From: a virus
IMG/VR virus record: IMGVR_UViG_3300036817_000169
Coordinates: 1-39,701 of that record
Length of the DNA: 39,701 bases
Reading direction: 5' to 3' (one strand)
Positions 2,867 to 39,701 of this stretch are shown here, one piece after another (within the stretch, counting starts at the first letter, position 1; each line of letters begins with the position of its first letter). Below the pieces are notes generated by a model that was given only the letters and a program-made list of their open reading frames with translations, ran no database searches and was not told where the DNA came from. The translations under genes were made by a program, and so were the position numbers.

Positions 2867-3466
2867 ATGCCGCAAACCTATCTTGTCGTCGTCGAGCCGA
2901 TCACGGCGGGCTGGCCCCCGCCCCAGGTGATGCCGCCGATCTACTACCCGCCGCCGGGTGGGGGTGGTGGGATGCCGCCGACCTGGGGCGGTGGCGGCCA
3001 ACCCTATCCGCCTGGGAGCGGCGGTGGCGGCGGGCCTGGGCAGCCGCCCTATCCCTCGCACCCGATCCCTCCAGGCGTGTGGCCGCAGCCTCCTGGCGGC
3101 GGCGGTCAGCCCCCGACCTGGGGCGGTGGCGGTCAACCTCATCCGCCGGGCGGCGGCGGCGGCCCCGGTTGGGCGCCGCATCCTGAGCACCCGATCCCTC
3201 CCGGCATTTGGGGCGGAGCGCCGGGTGGCGGAGGTCAGCCTCCTGGCATCTGGGGCGGCGGCAATCAACCCGGCACCATGCCCCCGATCTATATGCCGGG
3301 CGGCGGCACTGTGATGCCGCCAATGGATCCGGGCGGCGAACCGACGCATCCAATCGAAATCCCGCCCGGCTCATGGGTCATGCCGCCGCACCCTGACCAA
3401 GGTCTGCCCGACAGCGGCAACACGCCGAACAATGAGCTGCCGGAGACGCCGGAGCCGAAGGAGTAA
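2867..3466 (+). CDS. Pro/Gly-rich repeat protein
   Basis: A 199-residue protein preceded by GAGGAG. After a short ordinary N-terminus (MPQTYLVVVEPI) it consists of imperfect Pro/Gly repeats of about 12-20 residues (units such as GGGGQPPTWGGGG and HPIPPGIWGG), and ends in an acidic tail. The opposite-strand frame is open for most of this length, a by-product of the GC-rich repeats. Likely an extended virion surface or linker protein; no enzymatic motif is visible. Its stop codon overlaps the next start (TAATG). Confidence 0.7.
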   Translation: MPQTYLVVVEPITAGWPPPQVMPPIYYPPPGGGGGMPPTWGGGGQPYPPGSGGGGGPGQPPYPSHPIPPGVWPQPPGGGGQPPTWGGGGQPHPPGGGGGPGWAPHPEHPIPPGIWGGAPGGGGQPPGIWGGGNQPGTMPPIYMPGGGTVMPPMDPGGEPTHPIEIPPGSWVMPPHPDQGLPDSGNTPNNELPETPEPKE

Positions 3467-17241: not shown

Positions 17242-18420
17242 TCACGCCGCCTTTACCACTTTGAGGCGTCCGCGCCCCATCTTACGCGCGGCGCGGATCG
17301 CCGCCGCCTTGCCCTCGAACTCCTGCACGTAGTTCTGGCACCGTTCCAGCGTGTCGCCGAGGATCGCCTTCAACGCCTCGACGCCAAGCCCCTGCTCAAG
17401 CAAGTGCGTGGCGACGTAATGGCGCATGCCGTGCGCGGTGCATTCGGGGACGCCGATGTCGTCGCAGGCCCGGCGCATCAGGTTCGAGAAGTGGCCAGCC
17501 GAGATGGGCGCCCCGCCATCAAACTCGGAACCGACGAACGTCGTCGAGCCCAGAACACCGGCCTTCTTGGCCGCATCGAGCGCCTTCCTCAGATTGGGCG
17601 GGATCGGCGCCCAGGCGTCCTTGCCGGTCTTCTGCTGCTTGATCAGCATCATCTCGACCTTGTCGCCCTCATCGTCGTCGTGCAGCGAGATATGCTGCGG
17701 CCCCATGCGGACGATGTCGCAGCAGCGTTGGCCGGTCAGGAGCAGTTCGTACATGACGCGGGCGCGCGTGCCGTAGGCGTAGGTCGCCTCGTACTTGTCG
17801 CACTCGACCTCGCTCCACTTATGGCGAGCCACTGACGTATGCTGCTTTCGCTTGATGCTGTCGCAGGGATTGATCCAGTCCTTATCGAACAACTCCTTCT
17901 CCTCATCGGCCCATTTGTACATGCCGCGCACCGCGCTGATGAGCTGATTGGCCGACGCCTTCGCGGGTTTTGGGTTCGCCGGGTCCGAGCCGAACTTCGC
18001 AATGTGGTCGCGGATGTCTTTCAGGTTCTTCGGTTGGACCTTGCTGTAAGACACGTCGCCATGCGCGGCGGCCAGCCGTTTGAGGAGGTTGCGATGGCCC
18101 TTCTGAGTGTTTGGCTTGAACTCGGCGAAGTTGTCTGAGCTGATGTACTCGTTGACGAGCCAGCGAAGGCTCGTCGGATCGTTAGGCTTAAGCATCGGCA
18201 GAGCGTCGGCGACGCGCACACCCCGGCTGGCGTCGGTTAACTCCTGCCAGAACGCGACCGAGCCGGGCGCGTTTTTCATTTGGTGATAGACGTCGGGCGC
18301 CCGGTAGACCCAGATCGGCTTGCCGTGCCGGGTAATCTCAGCGCGCAGGCCTTTCGGCACCCTGCGCCCAAAGAGCTGTCTGCAATGGTCGTTTGTGATC
18401 TTACGTGATTTCGGTTCCAT
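17242..18420 (-). CDS. int: Tyrosine-recombinase integrase
   Basis: A 392-residue phage integrase that joins phage and host DNA at the attachment sites. Catalytic residues can be placed: Arg232 in TGQRCCDIVRM, a Lys in the following beta turn (QQKTGKDAWAPI), His330-x-x-Arg333 in HGMRHYVATHLLEQG, and the nucleophile Tyr364 in RCQNYVQEFE. The N-terminal half carries the arm- and core-binding domains. The ATG is preceded by the AACTGGTAAGGGAA element, which contains the stop codon of the upstream gene. It is the last gene of the reverse operon that begins with the ERF protein, so its expression is probably tied to that operon. Confidence 0.95.
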   Translation of the reverse strand: MEPKSRKITNDHCRQLFGRRVPKGLRAEITRHGKPIWVYRAPDVYHQMKNAPGSVAFWQELTDASRGVRVADALPMLKPNDPTSLRWLVNEYISSDNFAEFKPNTQKGHRNLLKRLAAAHGDVSYSKVQPKNLKDIRDHIAKFGSDPANPKPAKASANQLISAVRGMYKWADEEKELFDKDWINPCDSIKRKQHTSVARHKWSEVECDKYEATYAYGTRARVMYELLLTGQRCCDIVRMGPQHISLHDDDEGDKVEMMLIKQQKTGKDAWAPIPPNLRKALDAAKKAGVLGSTTFVGSEFDGGAPISAGHFSNLMRRACDDIGVPECTAHGMRHYVATHLLEQGLGVEALKAILGDTLERCQNYVQEFEGKAAAIRAARKMGRGRLKVVKAA

Positions 18421-18642: not shown

Positions 18643-18922
18643 CAGGAGCCTCCAGGGCGGCCCGCAGCAGGAGCCGACCGCGTGTGGCCTCATCAGCCTC
18701 GCCCCCATCGCAATCGGCCCTGGCGAGGCTGGGAAGGGGAATGTCGGCCTCCGGCGGCAGCGGCGCCACGAAGGGGGCTTCGTGGCGGACATGAAGGGGG
18801 CTTCGTGTCGGAACGCCGCAGCTCTGCCGCCAGGGATAGTGCCAGCGGCTATACAGGTGGCATGCCTTCGCCTCGACCGGCGTCGTCGCCAGAACCATCA
18901 GGGCGATAGCGAGCGACCTCAT
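18632..18922 (-). CDS. Small secreted protein
   Basis: A 96-residue protein with an N-terminal signal peptide (MRSLAIALMVLATTPVEAKA, likely cleaved near residue 18), then CHLYSRWHYPWRQSC with two Cys that could form a disulfide. AGGAG precedes the start. Inside the gene the segment GAAGGGGGCTTCGTG is repeated in tandem. I recall similar small exported proteins in rhizobial prophages, without function. It overlaps the methyltransferase stop by 4 nt. Confidence 0.65.
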   Translation of the reverse strand: MRSLAIALMVLATTPVEAKACHLYSRWHYPWRQSCGVPTRSPLHVRHEAPFVAPLPPEADIPLPSLARADCDGGEADEATRGRLLLRAALEAPDAH

Positions 18923-19938
18923 CGGTGCAGCTCCTGCGCGGCTTCACGAAAGGCGATTACGAAGCAAGCCGCGACCTGCGGGACGATGGCGTTGCCGTAG
19001 CCCCGCAGGCGTCCCACTCTGGCGGGTAGCCCATGAGCCAGCAGACGAAGGCCGGGTTTAACCCGCCGGGCTTTGCCGTCGGCTCCGACGAGCCATCTGG
19101 CGTCGTCCCAAAAGCCTCCGTCTGAAGGCTTGCTCCGCCCGAATGACTGAAGCTCGGTCCTGTCCAGTTGTTCGTTCGCGGCGTCGGCCACAGGCTCCTC
19201 GACCCGTTCGATGTCTCCCGCACGCCCGCGATCACGTCGATCTTCCGGCTGAAGTCCGTGCCGCCCGCTTCGTTGTAGCCGTTCTGCGTCGGCGTCCCCG
19301 CCATCGGCGTCGGCCACAGCGATCGACCTGAATACAGAACCACTTCGGACAGGTTCTTTTGATGCCCTGCTTGATGTCTCGTCAGCGCCTTCGCTGGGTC
19401 CGTATATTCGCCCCCGCCCTCCGTCCGCGCGTTGGGCGTCGGCCACAAAGAAGATGCGCTCCCTCCGGTGCGGCGCCCCGACACTGCAAGCTGGCACAAT
19501 GGCGGCCCCGACGGCATATCCACTTGCCTCCAGGTCAGCGCGCACTCCGGCGAACCATTCCCGTCCATCCGCGCTCGCAACCTGTTCTCCAAAGAGCCTT
19601 GCAGGGCGGCGCTCGGCGACGAGGCGGTAAAAAGCGGGCCAGAGGTGTCGTTCGTCGACATGGCCCTTTCCTTGTCCAGCGACCGAAAGCGGCTGACAGG
19701 GTGGGCTTCCGGTCCAGACCTCTTCGTCTTCGGGCCACCCGGCGAGCGAGAGCGCGTAGGGCCAGCCGCCGATCCCGGCGAAGAAGTGGCAGCGCCGGTA
19801 GCCTCGGAGATCGTCTCCCCGAACATCGATAATTGAGCGGTCATCCACATCGCCTTCCGGCAGCAGTCCCGCCACGATCAGGGTGCGCAGCCACGCCGCC
19901 GCAAACGGGTCATGGTCATTGTAATAGTCCCCGCTCAT
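18919..19938 (-). CDS. DNA (cytosine-5)-methyltransferase
   Basis: A 339-residue enzyme that adds a methyl group to C5 of cytosine. The conserved motifs are present: FAGIGG (residues 53-58, SAM binding), SPPCQ with catalytic Cys81, the EQV variant of the ENV motif (118-120), HRRERI (157-162) and, near the C-terminus, GYGNAIVPQ (about 313-321). The stretch between motifs VIII and X, the target-recognition region, has three VADA repeats. There is no cognate restriction enzyme, so protection of phage DNA against host restriction is the likely use. It is coupled to the HNH gene by ATGA. A second long frame runs inside the gene. Confidence 0.92.
   Translation of the reverse strand: MSGDYYNDHDPFAAAWLRTLIVAGLLPEGDVDDRSIIDVRGDDLRGYRRCHFFAGIGGWPYALSLAGWPEDEEVWTGSPPCQPLSVAGQGKGHVDERHLWPAFYRLVAERRPARLFGEQVASADGREWFAGVRADLEASGYAVGAAIVPACSVGAPHRRERIFFVADAQRADGGRGRIYGPSEGADETSSRASKEPVRSGSVFRSIAVADADGGDADAERLQRSGRHGLQPEDRRDRGRAGDIERVEEPVADAANEQLDRTELQSFGRSKPSDGGFWDDARWLVGADGKARRVKPGLRLLAHGLPARVGRLRGYGNAIVPQVAACFVIAFREAAQELHR
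18957..19844 (-). CDS. Overlapping ORF nested in the methyltransferase gene
   Basis: A 295-codon frame lying wholly within the methyltransferase gene, same strand, other frame. From ATG 19844 (GGAAGG about 8 nt upstream) it reads as a coherent protein: QLSMFGE, RSGPEAHPVS, SPECALTWRQVDMPSGPP, three SLWPTP repeats, then LNPAFVCWLMGYPPEWDACG and a Ser/Arg tail. I recall very similar proteins (LWPTP repeats, WLMG(F/Y)PPEW) annotated in many phages beside or inside cytosine methyltransferases. I cannot check whether they are translated; they may be conserved only because the methyltransferase frame is. No function is proposed. Confidence 0.5.
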   Translation of the reverse strand: MTAQLSMFGETISEATGAATSSPGSAAGPTRSRSPGGPKTKRSGPEAHPVSRFRSLDKERAMSTNDTSGPLFTASSPSAALQGSLENRLRARMDGNGSPECALTWRQVDMPSGPPLCQLAVSGRRTGGSASSLWPTPNARTEGGGEYTDPAKALTRHQAGHQKNLSEVVLYSGRSLWPTPMAGTPTQNGYNEAGGTDFSRKIDVIAGVRETSNGSRSLWPTPRTNNWTGPSFSHSGGASLQTEAFGTTPDGSSEPTAKPGGLNPAFVCWLMGYPPEWDACGATATPSSRRSRLAS

Positions 19939-20285
19939 CTGTGGGGCTCCTGTTTGATCCGATAGCGCCGCGCGATCTCGCTCGGCCCGGCCTCGATGGG
20001 ACGGTGCTTGCCTTCCAAGCGTTTCGTCTTGGCGATCTCCCGCACGTCGCGCCGGGTCTTCCGGTCATGGCAGGGGAGGCAGAGCAGCTTGCCGTCCTCG
20101 GCGGCGAGCGGCAGCCGGGCGTCGCCCACCGGCTGCATGCCTTCCGGCACGCAATGGTCGATCTCGTAGTCGGCCCGCGTCGGGCATTCCGCGCCGCACA
20201 GCTCGCACCAGGTGCGCCCGCTGAGATCGGTGGCGCGGGTCTTGATCCTGCGCGCCGTCGCCGCCGAGAACGAGATGCGGATCAT
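19935..20285 (-). CDS. HNH endonuclease
   Basis: A 116-residue protein with a classical HNH fold: CELCGAEC, then YEIDHCVPEG (catalytic Asp-His), then LLCLPCHDRKTRRD. The four Cys bind structural zinc. ATG 20285 is chosen for its ATGA overlap with the PP-loop gene stop; GTG 20294 is an alternative. It lies between the PP-loop enzyme and the methyltransferase. It may be a phage nuclease acting in recombination or packaging, or a restriction partner; the small size favours the former. Confidence 0.85.
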   Translation of the reverse strand: MIRISFSAATARRIKTRATDLSGRTWCELCGAECPTRADYEIDHCVPEGMQPVGDARLPLAAEDGKLLCLPCHDRKTRRDVREIAKTKRLEGKHRPIEAGPSEIARRYRIKQEPHR

Positions 20286-21109
20286 AACCCGCACATCCCT
20301 TCACACTCATGGATGAATAGGTTCAGTTGGCCGTGGTCCTCGGCGGTCGAAAGATCGACTTGGTCGAGCGGCACGCGCTTCGGATGCATGAACTGCTGCG
20401 CCTGCCGCAGGCGGGCGCCCTTGTCCTTGTCGATCGGCTCCCGGATCGCCTTGTCGATGGCGACGGCGTCGGCCCATTCGTCAGGCCGGTTGTCGCGCAT
20501 GTCGCGCCACATCGCGTTGTTGCGAAAGGGGCAACCGATGCAGCTCGACTTCGGCGGCTCAGGGTAGCCGAAATCCTTCAGCCATTTGAGACACTCCCAG
20601 CGGTTCATGCGCGCCTCAAGCAGCGGGAAGCGCCGAACCTCGAATTTCACTTTCGCTGGCGTGGCCCTGATGATCTCGTCGACCGAGATGCCGATCCACT
20701 TCTCGACCGAACCGGGCGCCATGCGGTCGCGCGGCCCCTTGCCAAGCAATTCGCGGACCTTCTTGTCGATGGGCTCGATCTTGTAGTTGCCGGTGCATTG
20801 GCGACGCCCAATGCCTTCCTTGTTACCCGCGTACTTCAGGTAGAACGGGACGGTGACGAACCACCCGACGCTCTGCCTTGGGCGCGTTCGGGTCAGCAGA
20901 TCATCGCGAATGTTGCCAGCGGTGACGATGTGGACCGGGAACGGCAGGACGCCGACGAGCCAGTCCAGATGGGCGTAGACCGCCTTCGGCTCCCAACCGG
21001 TGTCGGCGAAGATGGCGCAGTCGGGCATCGGCGTGATCTCGCCATGCGCCGCCATCAGCGCCATGGTGGTGGACTGGACGCCCGCGCCCAGGCTGAGAAC
21101 CCTGATCAT
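20282..21109 (-). CDS. PP-loop ATPase / PAPS reductase-like enzyme
   Basis: A 275-residue protein of the adenine-nucleotide alpha-hydrolase (PP-loop) superfamily: SLGAGVQS (residues 6-13) is the phosphate-binding loop, followed by IFADTGWEP. Later Cys residues (RRQCTGNYKI, CIGCPFRNN) could hold a sulfur or metal. PAPS reductase-like proteins in phages are sometimes linked to DNA modification, for example DndC-type sulfur insertion; here the neighbours are a DNA methyltransferase and an HNH nuclease, but no other dnd genes are visible. Function on DNA is an inference. Coupled by ATGA to the gene upstream. Confidence 0.78.
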   Translation of the reverse strand: MIRVLSLGAGVQSTTMALMAAHGEITPMPDCAIFADTGWEPKAVYAHLDWLVGVLPFPVHIVTAGNIRDDLLTRTRPRQSVGWFVTVPFYLKYAGNKEGIGRRQCTGNYKIEPIDKKVRELLGKGPRDRMAPGSVEKWIGISVDEIIRATPAKVKFEVRRFPLLEARMNRWECLKWLKDFGYPEPPKSSCIGCPFRNNAMWRDMRDNRPDEWADAVAIDKAIREPIDKDKGARLRQAQQFMHPKRVPLDQVDLSTAEDHGQLNLFIHECEGMCGL

Positions 21110-22310: not shown

Positions 22311-22788
22311 AGAACGCCTCCCTGCGCTTTGCGGAGTACACGGCATGAGCCTCCTCAATGGAGGCGTATGAGCCGAGGTGAATTAGTTTGCCGTCAGTGC
22401 GCAGGCGCGCGGTAAAGCGCCCATACTTGGTTTCGCGGACCCCCATGGGCAGGTTGCGAAACATGCGCGGCTTACGGTTCTTGTTGTTGTCGGCCGCCGT
22501 AGCTTCACGCAAATTGACCGGGCGGTCATCGATAGAATTGCCGTTTATGTGATCGACACACGGTCTTGGAAAGCGCCCGTGGACGGCCAGGAACATGATC
22601 CGCGCTCGCTTGTACGCGCGACCACGAACCTTGATCACCCAATAGAGCTTGCCGTGGCGAGAGATGCGGGCTCCTCCGGCCTCGGCTCCTGCGAGGCGAG
22701 GATGATTAAACGGGGGCTGCTTCCAGAACAGCCGCCCGTTTTCGTCATCGACCTCGAATAGAGAGAACACGTCACCCTGCTGGAGCAT
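22297..22788 (-). CDS. HNH endonuclease with AP2 domain (homing type)
   Basis: A 163-residue protein with the same plan as the one at 1699: HNH core CVDHINGNSIDD and NLREAT at about residues 77-100, then an AP2 domain (LPMGVRETKYGRFTARLR, then LGSYASIEEAHAVY). It overlaps the ERF gene by 17 nt and the exonuclease by 14 nt, so it is wedged between the two halves of the recombination system without disrupting either. The two AP2-HNH proteins are divergent, suggesting separate arrivals. Confidence 0.9.
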   Translation of the reverse strand: MLQQGDVFSLFEVDDENGRLFWKQPPFNHPRLAGAEAGGARISRHGKLYWVIKVRGRAYKRARIMFLAVHGRFPRPCVDHINGNSIDDRPVNLREATAADNNKNRKPRMFRNLPMGVRETKYGRFTARLRTDGKLIHLGSYASIEEAHAVYSAKRREAFCEFA

Positions 22789-23581
22789 TGCGCGCCCTTT
22801 TCTCGGCCTTGGCGAGGTCGAGGACCTCCTTGGCCCGCGTGAACTGATCCAGGTTCATCTCGACGATCTCGTCGACGCCGACGAGCTTCAAGAGCGTCGC
22901 CTGCGAGCGACCGCTATCCTCGATGAGCTTTTGCATCTCGTTGACCTGTTCGACGCTGATCTTCGGCGATGAGCCGCCAGCGCCGCGCCCATCGTCATCG
23001 ACGGCGGCGGCGAGGCCGATCGCGGCGCGCAGCGAATAGCGTTGCAAGTAGGTCAAGGCGCTGCCGAGCGCCTGCACCATCGACATGCCGGTCGAGCCTG
23101 GGTCGACCTTGCCTTCAAGATTGGTGCGCTCGGAGTAGCCGTCGGCATGGCTGACGACGCAGCTCACCTTCACCTGATCGCCGGTCTGCGCGACGCTGAA
23201 ACGGTAGGAGAGGCCGTGCTGTGCGAAGACGGGATCGACGACGCGCGCCACGTCGGCGAATTGCTCATAGCGGTACTTGGTGCGTGTGTTTGTTCTGGCG
23301 CTGGTGAAGTCCACATCGTGGCGCTTGATGACCGGCGAGAGTTCGCCCTTGGCCTCGCTCATCGCGGCGTTGAAGGCGCGCTCGGCGGCGCGGTCCTCCT
23401 CGGCCCGGCGCGCGGCAAGCAGGCGCTCGAACACATCGATGTTGAGGTCTTGCCGGGTGGCGAGCCGCTCGATCATGGCGAGCAGGCCACCGCCCCCGGA
23501 GGCTTGTTGAAGCTCCGAGGGCGGCGCATCAGCGGGCGACTGGTAAGGGACCGCGCCCACCGACTGTTCTTTATCGCTCAT
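22772..23581 (-). CDS. erf: ERF-family single-strand annealing protein
   Basis: A 269-residue recombination protein that pairs single DNA strands, for genome circularisation and repair. The ERF core spans about residues 55-175: FNAAMSEAKGELSPVIK, KYRYEQFADVARVVDPVFAQ, GLSYRF, and the conserved GSALTYLQRYSLRAAIGLA. It is the first gene of the long reverse operon. A good -35 box (TTGACA) lies about 46-51 nt upstream, and the three operators lie just beyond it. Working partner of the YqaJ exonuclease. Confidence 0.92.
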   Translation of the reverse strand: MSDKEQSVGAVPYQSPADAPPSELQQASGGGGLLAMIERLATRQDLNIDVFERLLAARRAEEDRAAERAFNAAMSEAKGELSPVIKRHDVDFTSARTNTRTKYRYEQFADVARVVDPVFAQHGLSYRFSVAQTGDQVKVSCVVSHADGYSERTNLEGKVDPGSTGMSMVQALGSALTYLQRYSLRAAIGLAAAVDDDGRGAGGSSPKISVEQVNEMQKLIEDSGRSQATLLKLVGVDEIVEMNLDQFTRAKEVLDLAKAEKRARNAPAG

Positions 23582-37010: not shown

Positions 37011-38345
37011 ATGACCCTCGCCGACGACGCCACCGTCAACGACAATGCGCCGCTTACCATCCCCTACCTGCCGCGTCGGCACTTTCTCGCCCTGCATGCG
37101 AGCGAAAAACGCTGGAAATTCTGCTGCGCCCACCGACGCGCAGGCAAGACGGTGGCGCTCGCCAATCACCTGATCCGCGCCGCCTACCTCAACAATCGCG
37201 AATGGCCGCCGCCGCGCTACGGCTACGTCGGCCCCTCGTTTGAGCAAGCCAAAGATTTGGTCTGGTCCTACCTGAAGCAATACACCGCGCCGATCGAGGG
37301 CGTCAGGTTCCTGGAGGGCGAGCTGGCGATCGTGATGCCGCACAACGGCGCGATCATCAAACTCTACGGCGGCATGTCGGCCTACGAGCGCATGCGCGGC
37401 ATGTACTTCGACGGCATCGTGCTGGACGAATATCCGCTCTTGGCCAAGACCGTGTTCTCCACCGTGGTCAGGCCCTGCCTCGCCGACTATCGCGGCTTCG
37501 CCATCGTATCGGGGACCTCGAACGGCGACGACCACTTCAACACCCTGCGCCTGAAGGCGATGGATGACGATCGCTGGGACGTGTTCCTGATCCCACTCAG
37601 CTCGACCGGCGAGGAGGCCCTGTCCTACGCCGAGGCCAAAGAGCTGACCCAGGACATGAGCGCGGACGAATACGCCCGCGAAATGGAGTGTTCTTTCGAC
37701 GCCCCGGTCGAAGGCGCCTACTTCGCCGAAGCCTTGAACGCGCTCGCCAGCCAGGGCCGGGTCTGCCCGGTCCCGGCCGACCTGTCGGCCCCGGTGATCA
37801 CCGCATGGGACCTCGGCGTGCATGACTATTGCTCGATCTGGTGGTTCCAGATCATCGGCAAGGAAGTCCACTTCATCGACTACGCGATGAGCGTCGGCAA
37901 AGGCCTCGACCATTGGGGCAAGTTGCTCAGGACCAAGAAGGCCGAACGCGGCTTCAACTACCGCTGCCACCTCCTGCCGCACGACATCGAACACCGCGAA
38001 ATTTCGTCGGCCAAATCGCGCCGCCAAACCCTGGAGGACCTGATCCCGCGCGATGAGCCGATCATCACCGTGCCGCGCATCAGCTCGAAAGAGGACAGCA
38101 TCAACGCCGCCCGCGCCATGCTGGGCTCGTCCTGGTTCGACGGCGTGAAATGCAAGACCGGCTTGGCGATGCTGCGCGGCTACCATAAGAGCGCGATGGG
38201 CCAGCCGGTGCATGGCCCAGGGCCGCACAGCCACGGCGCCGACGCCTACCAGACCGCAGCTGTCGGCTTCCACCTGATCACCGGCCTCTCGGCCTCGATG
38301 CTCAGACACGGCGCCATGCGACGCCGCATCCGAGGCGTGATCTAG
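37011..38345 (+). CDS. terL: Terminase large subunit
   Basis: A 444-residue packaging motor. Walker A AHRRAGKT (residues 40-47) and Walker B IVLDEY (Asp139-Glu140) make the ATPase; the nuclease half begins with AWDLGVHD (Asp267) and has further acidic positions and GPHSHGADAY near the C-terminus. It pumps DNA through the portal and cuts it. Portal is the next forward gene, but a reverse-strand gene pair lies between them, which is unusual for this tightly packed module. Confidence 0.95.
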   Translation: MTLADDATVNDNAPLTIPYLPRRHFLALHASEKRWKFCCAHRRAGKTVALANHLIRAAYLNNREWPPPRYGYVGPSFEQAKDLVWSYLKQYTAPIEGVRFLEGELAIVMPHNGAIIKLYGGMSAYERMRGMYFDGIVLDEYPLLAKTVFSTVVRPCLADYRGFAIVSGTSNGDDHFNTLRLKAMDDDRWDVFLIPLSSTGEEALSYAEAKELTQDMSADEYAREMECSFDAPVEGAYFAEALNALASQGRVCPVPADLSAPVITAWDLGVHDYCSIWWFQIIGKEVHFIDYAMSVGKGLDHWGKLLRTKKAERGFNYRCHLLPHDIEHREISSAKSRRQTLEDLIPRDEPIITVPRISSKEDSINAARAMLGSSWFDGVKCKTGLAMLRGYHKSAMGQPVHGPGPHSHGADAYQTAAVGFHLITGLSASMLRHGAMRRRIRGVI

Positions 38346-38352
38346 AAAAAGT

Positions 38353-38389
38353 GGCCGCGCCCCCTTTGCCTCGGTACTCTGGCGCGGCC
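38353..38389 (-). terminator. Intrinsic terminator of the PEP-CTERM gene
   Basis: Perfect 9-bp stem GGCCGCGCC/GGCGCGGCC (38353-38361/38381-38389). On the reverse strand it is followed by ACTTTTTCTAG, a proper U-tract. It would stop transcripts of the reverse gene before they enter terL. Confidence 0.78.
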
Positions 38390-38410: not shown

Positions 38411-39121
38411 TTAAAACGCGTGCCGCTGACGCCGCCTGCGATAGCCACAGAGCCCCAGAAGACCAAACCCAGCCAACAGCATCGCCCAGGTCGACGGCTC
38501 CGGCACGCCGCTCTCCATCGACTGATTAAAGCCGGTGATCGAGCCGCCGCCGATCAAGGCGAGCGAAGCGGTTTCGGTCATCGAGAACGGCCCGAGCGCA
38601 TCGAAGGCGGTCAGCCTGGATCCGCTGAAGCTGTCGGGATCACTGAGCGGCACGCCGCTGACACTCTCCAACAGAGCGCCGGGCGTGTTGAGCGGGTTCG
38701 CCCCCTGCGTGTCCGCCGTGTCGGCGAAGAACTCGAGCGTCGAAGGGCCTGAGCCCACCGCCGAATTGAAGGTGAGCGAACCGCTCGACCGGATGAAGGT
38801 GACCGGCGCGGCGAAGCCGGTGTCGCTGGCCAGGAGCGAAACGGTGATCGGCACGCCCCGCTCGTTCAGGATGTTGCTCGACGACAGCTCCAGCACGTTG
38901 GGATTGATCGAGGATTGCGCCAGGGTGAGCTGCACGAACGCGCCCCCGACCGTGGTGTCGACGGTCAAGAGGTTCTTCGCTCCACCGCTTTGATCGCAGG
39001 AGAGTTCGCCATCCGAGCAGGTGAAGGTCGAGCCGCCGGAGCTGATGGAGAGCTGCAGCGTCGCATGGGCAGGCGCGGCGGCGAGCAAGAGCGCAGCCGT
39101 CGAGACGATGAACTTGTTCAT
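38411..39121 (-). CDS. PEP-CTERM sorting-domain protein (phage cargo)
   Basis: A 236-residue exported protein. ATG 39121 is chosen since it puts a clean signal peptide first (MNKFIVSTAALLLAAAPAHA). The mature part is Ser/Thr/Gly/Leu-rich and beta-like, with one Cys pair (TCSDGELSC). The end, residues 206-236, is a textbook PEP-CTERM signal: VPEPSTWAMLLAGFGLLGL followed by an Arg cluster. In this system a host exosortase recognises and processes the tail, usually on proteins tied to exopolysaccharide. No exosortase is in the window. The gene opposes the packaging genes and has its own terminator, the hallmarks of a moron. Confidence 0.9.
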   Translation of the reverse strand: MNKFIVSTAALLLAAAPAHATLQLSISSGGSTFTCSDGELSCDQSGGAKNLLTVDTTVGGAFVQLTLAQSSINPNVLELSSSNILNERGVPITVSLLASDTGFAAPVTFIRSSGSLTFNSAVGSGPSTLEFFADTADTQGANPLNTPGALLESVSGVPLSDPDSFSGSRLTAFDALGPFSMTETASLALIGGGSITGFNQSMESGVPEPSTWAMLLAGFGLLGLCGYRRRRQRHAF

Positions 39122-39360: not shown

Positions 39361-39701
39361 GTGGCCATCGAGCGCCTGTTTACCTTCAAGGACGGCGACA
39401 CCGCCACCGGCACGCCGTCATCCTACGACCCCGGCGATCCCGCAACCTACCAGCAATTCATCCACGCGATGATCACCGACGCGCGCGATTACGAGAACTC
39501 GGTCCTGGCGCCGAAGCGCGACGAGGCGCAGAAATACTATTACGGCTTCCTGCCATCGCTGAACGCGTCAGGCTCGCCCTACAGCGACACCCTGATCGTC
39601 GAAGACCCCAACGCCACTTACGAGGAAATCCTCGGCCCCACCGAAGGCCCGACGCGATCCTCGTTTGTCTCCACCGATGTGCGCGACGCCATCCTCACCA
39701 T
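39361..39701 (+). CDS. Portal protein (3' end beyond window)
   Basis: The first 113 residues of a larger protein, from GTG 39361 with GGAG 11 nt upstream. FIHAMITDARDYENSVLAPK, then KYYYGFLP, and TRSSFVSTDVRDAILT match the N-terminal pattern of SU10/P22-like portal proteins, which form the DNA entry ring. Gene order (after terL, before scaffold and capsid if the ends join) supports this. The frame is still open at the window edge. Confidence 0.82.
   Translation, partial: MAIERLFTFKDGDTATGTPSSYDPGDPATYQQFIHAMITDARDYENSVLAPKRDEAQKYYYGFLPSLNASGSPYSDTLIVEDPNATYEEILGPTEGPTRSSFVSTDVRDAILT

Follow-up and report, generated by a model that had tools for sequence, protein, structure and literature searches.

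A mobile, moron-like family of phage genes encoding putative exosortase substrates, with a possible role in superinfection exclusion

The window analysed here is one IMG/VR virus record in its entirety; it is 39,701 bases long and has no end repeats. Between its terminase large-subunit (terL) and portal genes it carries a gene for a PEP-CTERM protein that is very probably a phage accessory substrate of exosortase. The protein is not an isolated oddity: its family counts more than 80 distinct members, encoded in many types of phage, and the best reading of the sequence comparisons is that its gene is a mobile, moron-like phage accessory gene. The whole account offered below, in which this mobile moron would specify a surface protein that is processed by the host's exosortase and serves in exclusion or shielding, is put forward tentatively, with not quite an even chance of being right. 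The features on which the analysis turns are the following (coordinates of the window):

38411..39121 (-): gene of the PEP-CTERM protein (236 aa), starting with ATG at 39121, its stop codon reaching to 38411
39062..39121 (-): predicted N-terminal signal peptide, residues 1-20, MNKFIVSTAALLLAAAPAHA, with an AxA site and without a lipobox Cys (sequence pattern)
38507..39061 (-): predicted exported β-sandwich domain, residues 21-205, with a conserved Cys35/Cys42 pair and a QGANP motif (AF2 model, invariant columns)
38414..38506 (-): PEP-CTERM sorting tail, comprising VPEPSTWAM, a TM helix at 209-230 and an Arg-rich end (NF035944/PF07589, model helix)
37011..38345 (+): terL, the left neighbour, convergent (PF03237; 76 relatives in IMG/VR)
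39363..39701 (+): start of the portal gene (N-terminal part of the protein), cut off by the end of the record (homologues in most terL loci)
17242..18420 (-): tyrosine integrase (phrog_1 E 7e-27, PF00589)

The PEP-CTERM reading frame was chosen by a codon-usage gene caller trained on the other genes of the window (score 59.5), and the portal fragment on its far side is homologous to the 717-791 aa portals of relatives. The first-pass annotation had placed a PEP-CTERM gene here, between terminase and portal and on the opposite strand; its coordinates and strand are exact, and PF03237 lies upstream. The complete signal peptide and PEP-CTERM tail that it described are also borne out. Residues A18 and A20 of the signal peptide are conserved in at least 90% of 34 homologues, in 75 of 78 full-length homologues an AxA stands ahead of the first strand (judged by pattern), and the predicted cleavage site, between MNKFIVSTAALLLAAAPAHA and T (that is, AHA/T), has no Cys within 10 residues. 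The tail exceeds the curated cut-offs of NF035944 (PEPxxWA-CTERM; E 2.7e-10, 40 bits, cut-off 35), TIGR02595 (25.8 bits, cut-off 16) and PF07589 (32.2 bits, cut-off 20.7). Between these ends the protein has no TM segment: the model is all-β from residue 23 to 205, and its sole helix is that at 209-230.

Signal peptide, absence of an internal TM segment, and a PEP motif followed by TM helix and basic end are shared with the PEP-CTERM/exosortase (EpsH/Xrt) substrates (Haft 2006, PMC1569441), as is the scarcity of homology outside the tail that was described for the class (PMC1569441). Unlike that class, the family of the window protein is phage-encoded rather than host-chromosomal, is large and conserved, and resides in records that do not specify exosortase (a check of 46 carrier records for PF09721 gave no hit). 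Processing, if any, must consequently be by a host enzyme, and dependence on the host's exosortase, as proposed at first pass, is the natural reading.

The gene is under purifying selection, with dN/dS of 0.20-0.37 for the whole protein (against 14 homologues) and 0.16-0.34 for the exported domain. Its surroundings do not deviate in base composition (GC about 0.62-0.66 near the gene vs 0.64 overall); deviant composition is frequent in morons and is not required of them. The terminator ascribed to the gene at first pass is weakly supported. A candidate intrinsic terminator with a 9-bp GC stem, a 19-nt loop and T5 does lie at 38346..38389 (-); its folding is no better than that of shuffled sequences (z -0.41), and it is missing from close relatives because in them the stop of the PEP-CTERM gene reaches into the terL end. 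A scan for sigma-70 promoter-like sites gave none for the window gene.

The AlphaFold2 model, built on 34 homologues (pLDDT 83), is a β sandwich joined to the C-terminal helix. Its best matches among solved folds are Bd1399 of Bdellovibrio (8OKH, PMC10792529; Z 9.3), SGBP-B (Z 8.9), TmCBM61 (Z 8.0) and CBM16 (Z 7.0), with tailspike C-terminal domains also among the best. What Bd1399, TmCBM61, CBM16 and SGBP-B share with the phage protein is a secreted β-sandwich fold; they differ in that there is no sequence similarity (7-10% identity), and the similarity in fold is modest, Z reaching 9.3 at best and mostly lying at 6-8, a level common for β sandwiches. The model suggests a jelly-roll-like fold that loosely resembles carbohydrate-binding modules. 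It also hints at glycan binding, weakly so because Z values of this size are common among β sandwiches. Cys35 and Cys42 are invariant in the 34 aligned homologues and could form a disulfide. A PDB sequence search with the protein returned nothing meaningful, and PHROGs holds no functional family for it (one member, weak 'secreted protein').

The number of relatives in viral contigs grows with the breadth of the query, from 7 (single-protein search) to 46 (alignment of those 7) and to at least 80 loci (a more diverse alignment); with a profile restricted to the exported domain the count is 82 distinct relatives. A PEP-CTERM-type tail is kept in 77 of 78 full-length distinct members, the remaining one being cut by the contig end, and PF07589 is recognised in 33 of 34 aligned homologues. 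In 14 of the tail-bearing members, mostly divergent ones, the same domain carries a tail of the canonical PEPAS..LLG type in place of PEPSTWAM. Such tail variants on one domain would be expected of movement between phages whose hosts differ in exosortase, and the tail type may mark the hosts of uncultured phages, a use in host prediction. Homologues were found neither among 50,697 cultured phage records nor among 72,556 plasmids, and none appeared in 84,980 bacterial species genomes scanned with narrow six-peptide patterns of low sensitivity (of the 80+ relatives in viral contigs they recover 7).

Morons of the λ bor/lom type are sporadically distributed extra genes, often on the opposite strand, inserted between genes that adjoin each other in related phages. 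The PEP-CTERM gene, taken for a moron by the first-pass annotation, is like them in separating genes that relatives have side by side, in being often reversed and sporadic and, in some copies, in being flanked by terminators; it differs in its putative use of the exosortase route, for which no moron precedent was found in the literature searched. Its terL-portal site makes the point: in Ochrobactrum phage OH the portal gene directly adjoins terL, in L010 and L004, both close relatives, 83-102 bp separate the two, and in PEP-CTERM carriers the distance is 901-969 bp; further relatives have endolysins or other accessory genes in this gap. (The site is a variable one: in L036, L053 and L062 the insert is, by sequence, an endolysin of muramidase, GH19 or GH25 type.) Three other contigs have the gene in the same antisense position (L078, L079/L187, L081/L194), and between terL and portal relatives occur in both orientations. 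Among the 12 terL-group records of at least 38 kb, 8 have a PEP-CTERM gene of one kind or another, and several phages have two PEP-CTERM genes in tandem.

Other relatives separate portal from scaffold (L083), adjoin the integrase (L193, L196, L198) or are found between helicase and convergent tail-region genes (L195, L203, L222, L225) or beside tail-fibre and endolysin genes (L215, L258, L249). When orientation is compared with that of the two flanking genes, 40 copies are co-directional, 11 are antisense to both neighbours and 14 have a mixed arrangement (a few contigs counted twice). The descent of the gene and that of its neighbour are discordant: the window and L185 are 66% identical in terL and 83% in the PEP-CTERM protein, the window and L078 91% and 79%, and over 78 pairs the two identities are hardly correlated (Spearman 0.19). 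The L017/L196 contig is 82% identical to the window in terL, yet has its PEP-CTERM gene beside the integrase. A terminator-like stem stands on each side of the gene in L223 and downstream only in L197. In L193, L196 and L198 a conserved promoter-like block (of the CTTGTCATG-N-GCTACAGT type) follows a terminator-like stem and directly precedes the gene. A proline-rich protein with GIWGG..HPDQGLP repeats is encoded at 2867-3466 (+) of the window; its relatives often directly adjoin PEP-CTERM genes in other phages (L197, L202, L210, L223, L052), which implies that both use the same accessory sites.

The window phage is probably temperate, because it encodes a tyrosine integrase together with an HTH protein, a C5 methyltransferase and an annealing protein of Erf type. 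(In the early region, genes for a C5 DNA methyltransferase, a PAPS-reductase-like protein and an Erf-type annealing protein are at 18919-19938 (-), 20282-21109 (-) and 22772-23581 (-).) Its nearest cultured phage by terL is Ochrobactrum phage OH, at 52% identity. No attachment-site tRNA or tRNA fragment that might serve as a host clue was found in the window, and alignment of terL against bacterial genome contigs found no lysogens. The earlier suggestion that a lysogen would make the protein is in keeping with the window integrase and is too narrow for the family: a tyrosine integrase is present in only 9 of 41 carrier records (a count that leaves out serine integrases and includes many partial records), and the gene is often co-directional in late, lysis or tail neighbourhoods. 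A purely lysogenic role is doubtful and, because of those 9 in 41, not favoured.

Exosortase and its PEP-CTERM clients are known as a host system for exopolysaccharide-linked surface proteins. In the sequence of events that we infer, the phage protein would be exported by Sec and its signal peptide removed, leaving the protein anchored in the inner membrane through the PEP-CTERM helix at its C terminus. Host exosortase would then recognise VPEP at the membrane face and release the domain or transfer it outward (following the model of PMC1569441), so that the rigid β sandwich would come to lie on the cell envelope or beyond it. Its likeliest role in that position would be to bind surface glycan, exopolysaccharide or receptor and coat the surface, and this coating could curb further adsorption of phage to the infected or lysogenic cell or to its debris (superinfection exclusion or receptor shielding). 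Exclusion or shielding, taken as the function of the protein, is a serious candidate that falls somewhat short of an even chance. The same measure of caution applies to the proposal in its general form, that a mobile family in diverse, mostly uncultured phages hijacks exosortase to show a lectin-like β sandwich that excludes superinfection, with tails tuned to the host.

Phage T5 provides what may be regarded, by analogy, as the closest functional counterpart. Its Llp is an envelope protein that is encoded beside the gene for the receptor-binding protein pb5 and blocks the receptor (PMC9586334); exclusion proteins like Llp have been proposed to avert wasted adsorption to fragments of lysed cells, and Llp and Cor of the T1 group are lipoproteins (PMC9586334). 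The PEP-CTERM protein is similarly small, phage-encoded and, by prediction, exported to the envelope, and several of its relatives adjoin tail-fibre genes, as llp adjoins pb5. It is not a member of the Llp/Cor group: it has an exosortase tail and no lipobox, and the window copy does not adjoin a receptor-binding gene, which counts against the exclusion account.

The literature searched holds no experiment linking any PEP-CTERM protein to phage exclusion. Nor does full-text literature on phage, prophage, viral contigs and AMGs (with few subscription journals covered) describe a phage-borne PEP-CTERM protein, in agreement with the first-pass annotation, which knew of no such cargo. The founding paper on the class mentions neither virus nor prophage (PMC1569441), and a Microcystis paper in which 'PEP-CTERM' and 'phage' occur together (PMC12642866) was rejected as a precedent, its genes being those of the host and not phage cargo. 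A large phage family of PEP-CTERM clients implies viruses that manipulate the host surface by way of exosortase, and gives access from the phage side to the function of PEP-CTERM proteins. We know of no earlier viral use of exosortase sorting; this one, if true, would be the first.

The integrase of the window phage also fits a reading in which the gene is cargo for lysogenic conversion, the prophage adding an exosortase-sorted matrix or adhesion protein that alters exopolysaccharide, floc, biofilm or host fitness and has no direct anti-phage role. Known PEP-CTERM proteins do act in floc and biofilm formation (PMC9850573, PMC12188702), and three P2-like proviruses of isolate genomes carry an unrelated PEP-CTERM gene. 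This reading is rather unlikely, given that so few carrier records have a tyrosine integrase and that many copies are co-directional with late-type neighbours. A further reading is a protein that helps lysis or release, made late in the envelope and aiding progeny to leave cells coated in exopolysaccharide or to disperse from them. In 14 of 23 loci in which both genes are recognised, an endolysin gene (M15, GH19, GH25) lies within about 1.2 kb (some contigs overlapping or related), the order tail fibre/PEP-CTERM/endolysin recurs in L215, L258 and L141, and in the P2-like proviruses the PEP-CTERM gene abuts the lysis cassette. Lysis regions, on the other hand, are common moron sites anyway; the gene is also found at terL/portal, helicase and integrase sites; and the window copy is antisense to the late genes, with no endolysin recognised among the window genes scanned. 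Help in lysis is accordingly improbable.

Retention of the tail, the one feature kept universally across divergent members, together with the tandem pairs of PEP-CTERM genes in several phages, would also fit a decoy, a plentiful substrate that keeps the exosortase of the host engaged and thereby thins the host's own PEP-CTERM/exopolysaccharide coat. A decoy needing its tail alone would not be expected to have invariant motifs in the exported domain, and purifying selection acts on that domain no less strongly (dN/dS 0.16-0.34); the decoy reading is very unlikely. Misassembly or contamination by a bacterial fragment, recognised at first pass as a danger to the whole case, might be thought of because PEP-CTERM is otherwise bacterial and the record is a metagenomic fragment. 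It is rejected, with next to no probability remaining to it: independent contigs (L078, L079, L081) have the same junctions, many of the 82 distinct relatives in viral contigs adjoin terL, portal, MCP or endolysin genes, and no plasmid relative was found, nor a bacterial one in the narrow-pattern, low-sensitivity genome scan.

Viral records hold other PEP-CTERM genes besides. A second family (TLQIEVFDNG...VPEPSTWAM) has about 34 loci with 56-84% identity to its member in L141 (L141:2816-3463 (+)), and no match in cultured phages. Its structure model is poor (pLDDT 46), and the profile similarity of the two families comes mainly from signal peptide and tail. Members of the second family lie after helicase (L128:9239-9877), beside an M15 endolysin (L096, L136), with tail fibre and GH19-type endolysin (L141) and downstream of portal (L126); judged by gene order, these sites are equivalent to those of the first family, as for variable surface proteins. 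In the P2-like proviruses of three isolate genomes, IMG 2931122664, 2931039395 and 2930970932, the unrelated PEP-CTERM gene (L122:11100-11639 (+), L147:443-982 (-), L162:3112-3651 (-)) is antisense, between a large late gene and an endolysin/spanin cassette, and these isolates are possible culturable test strains.
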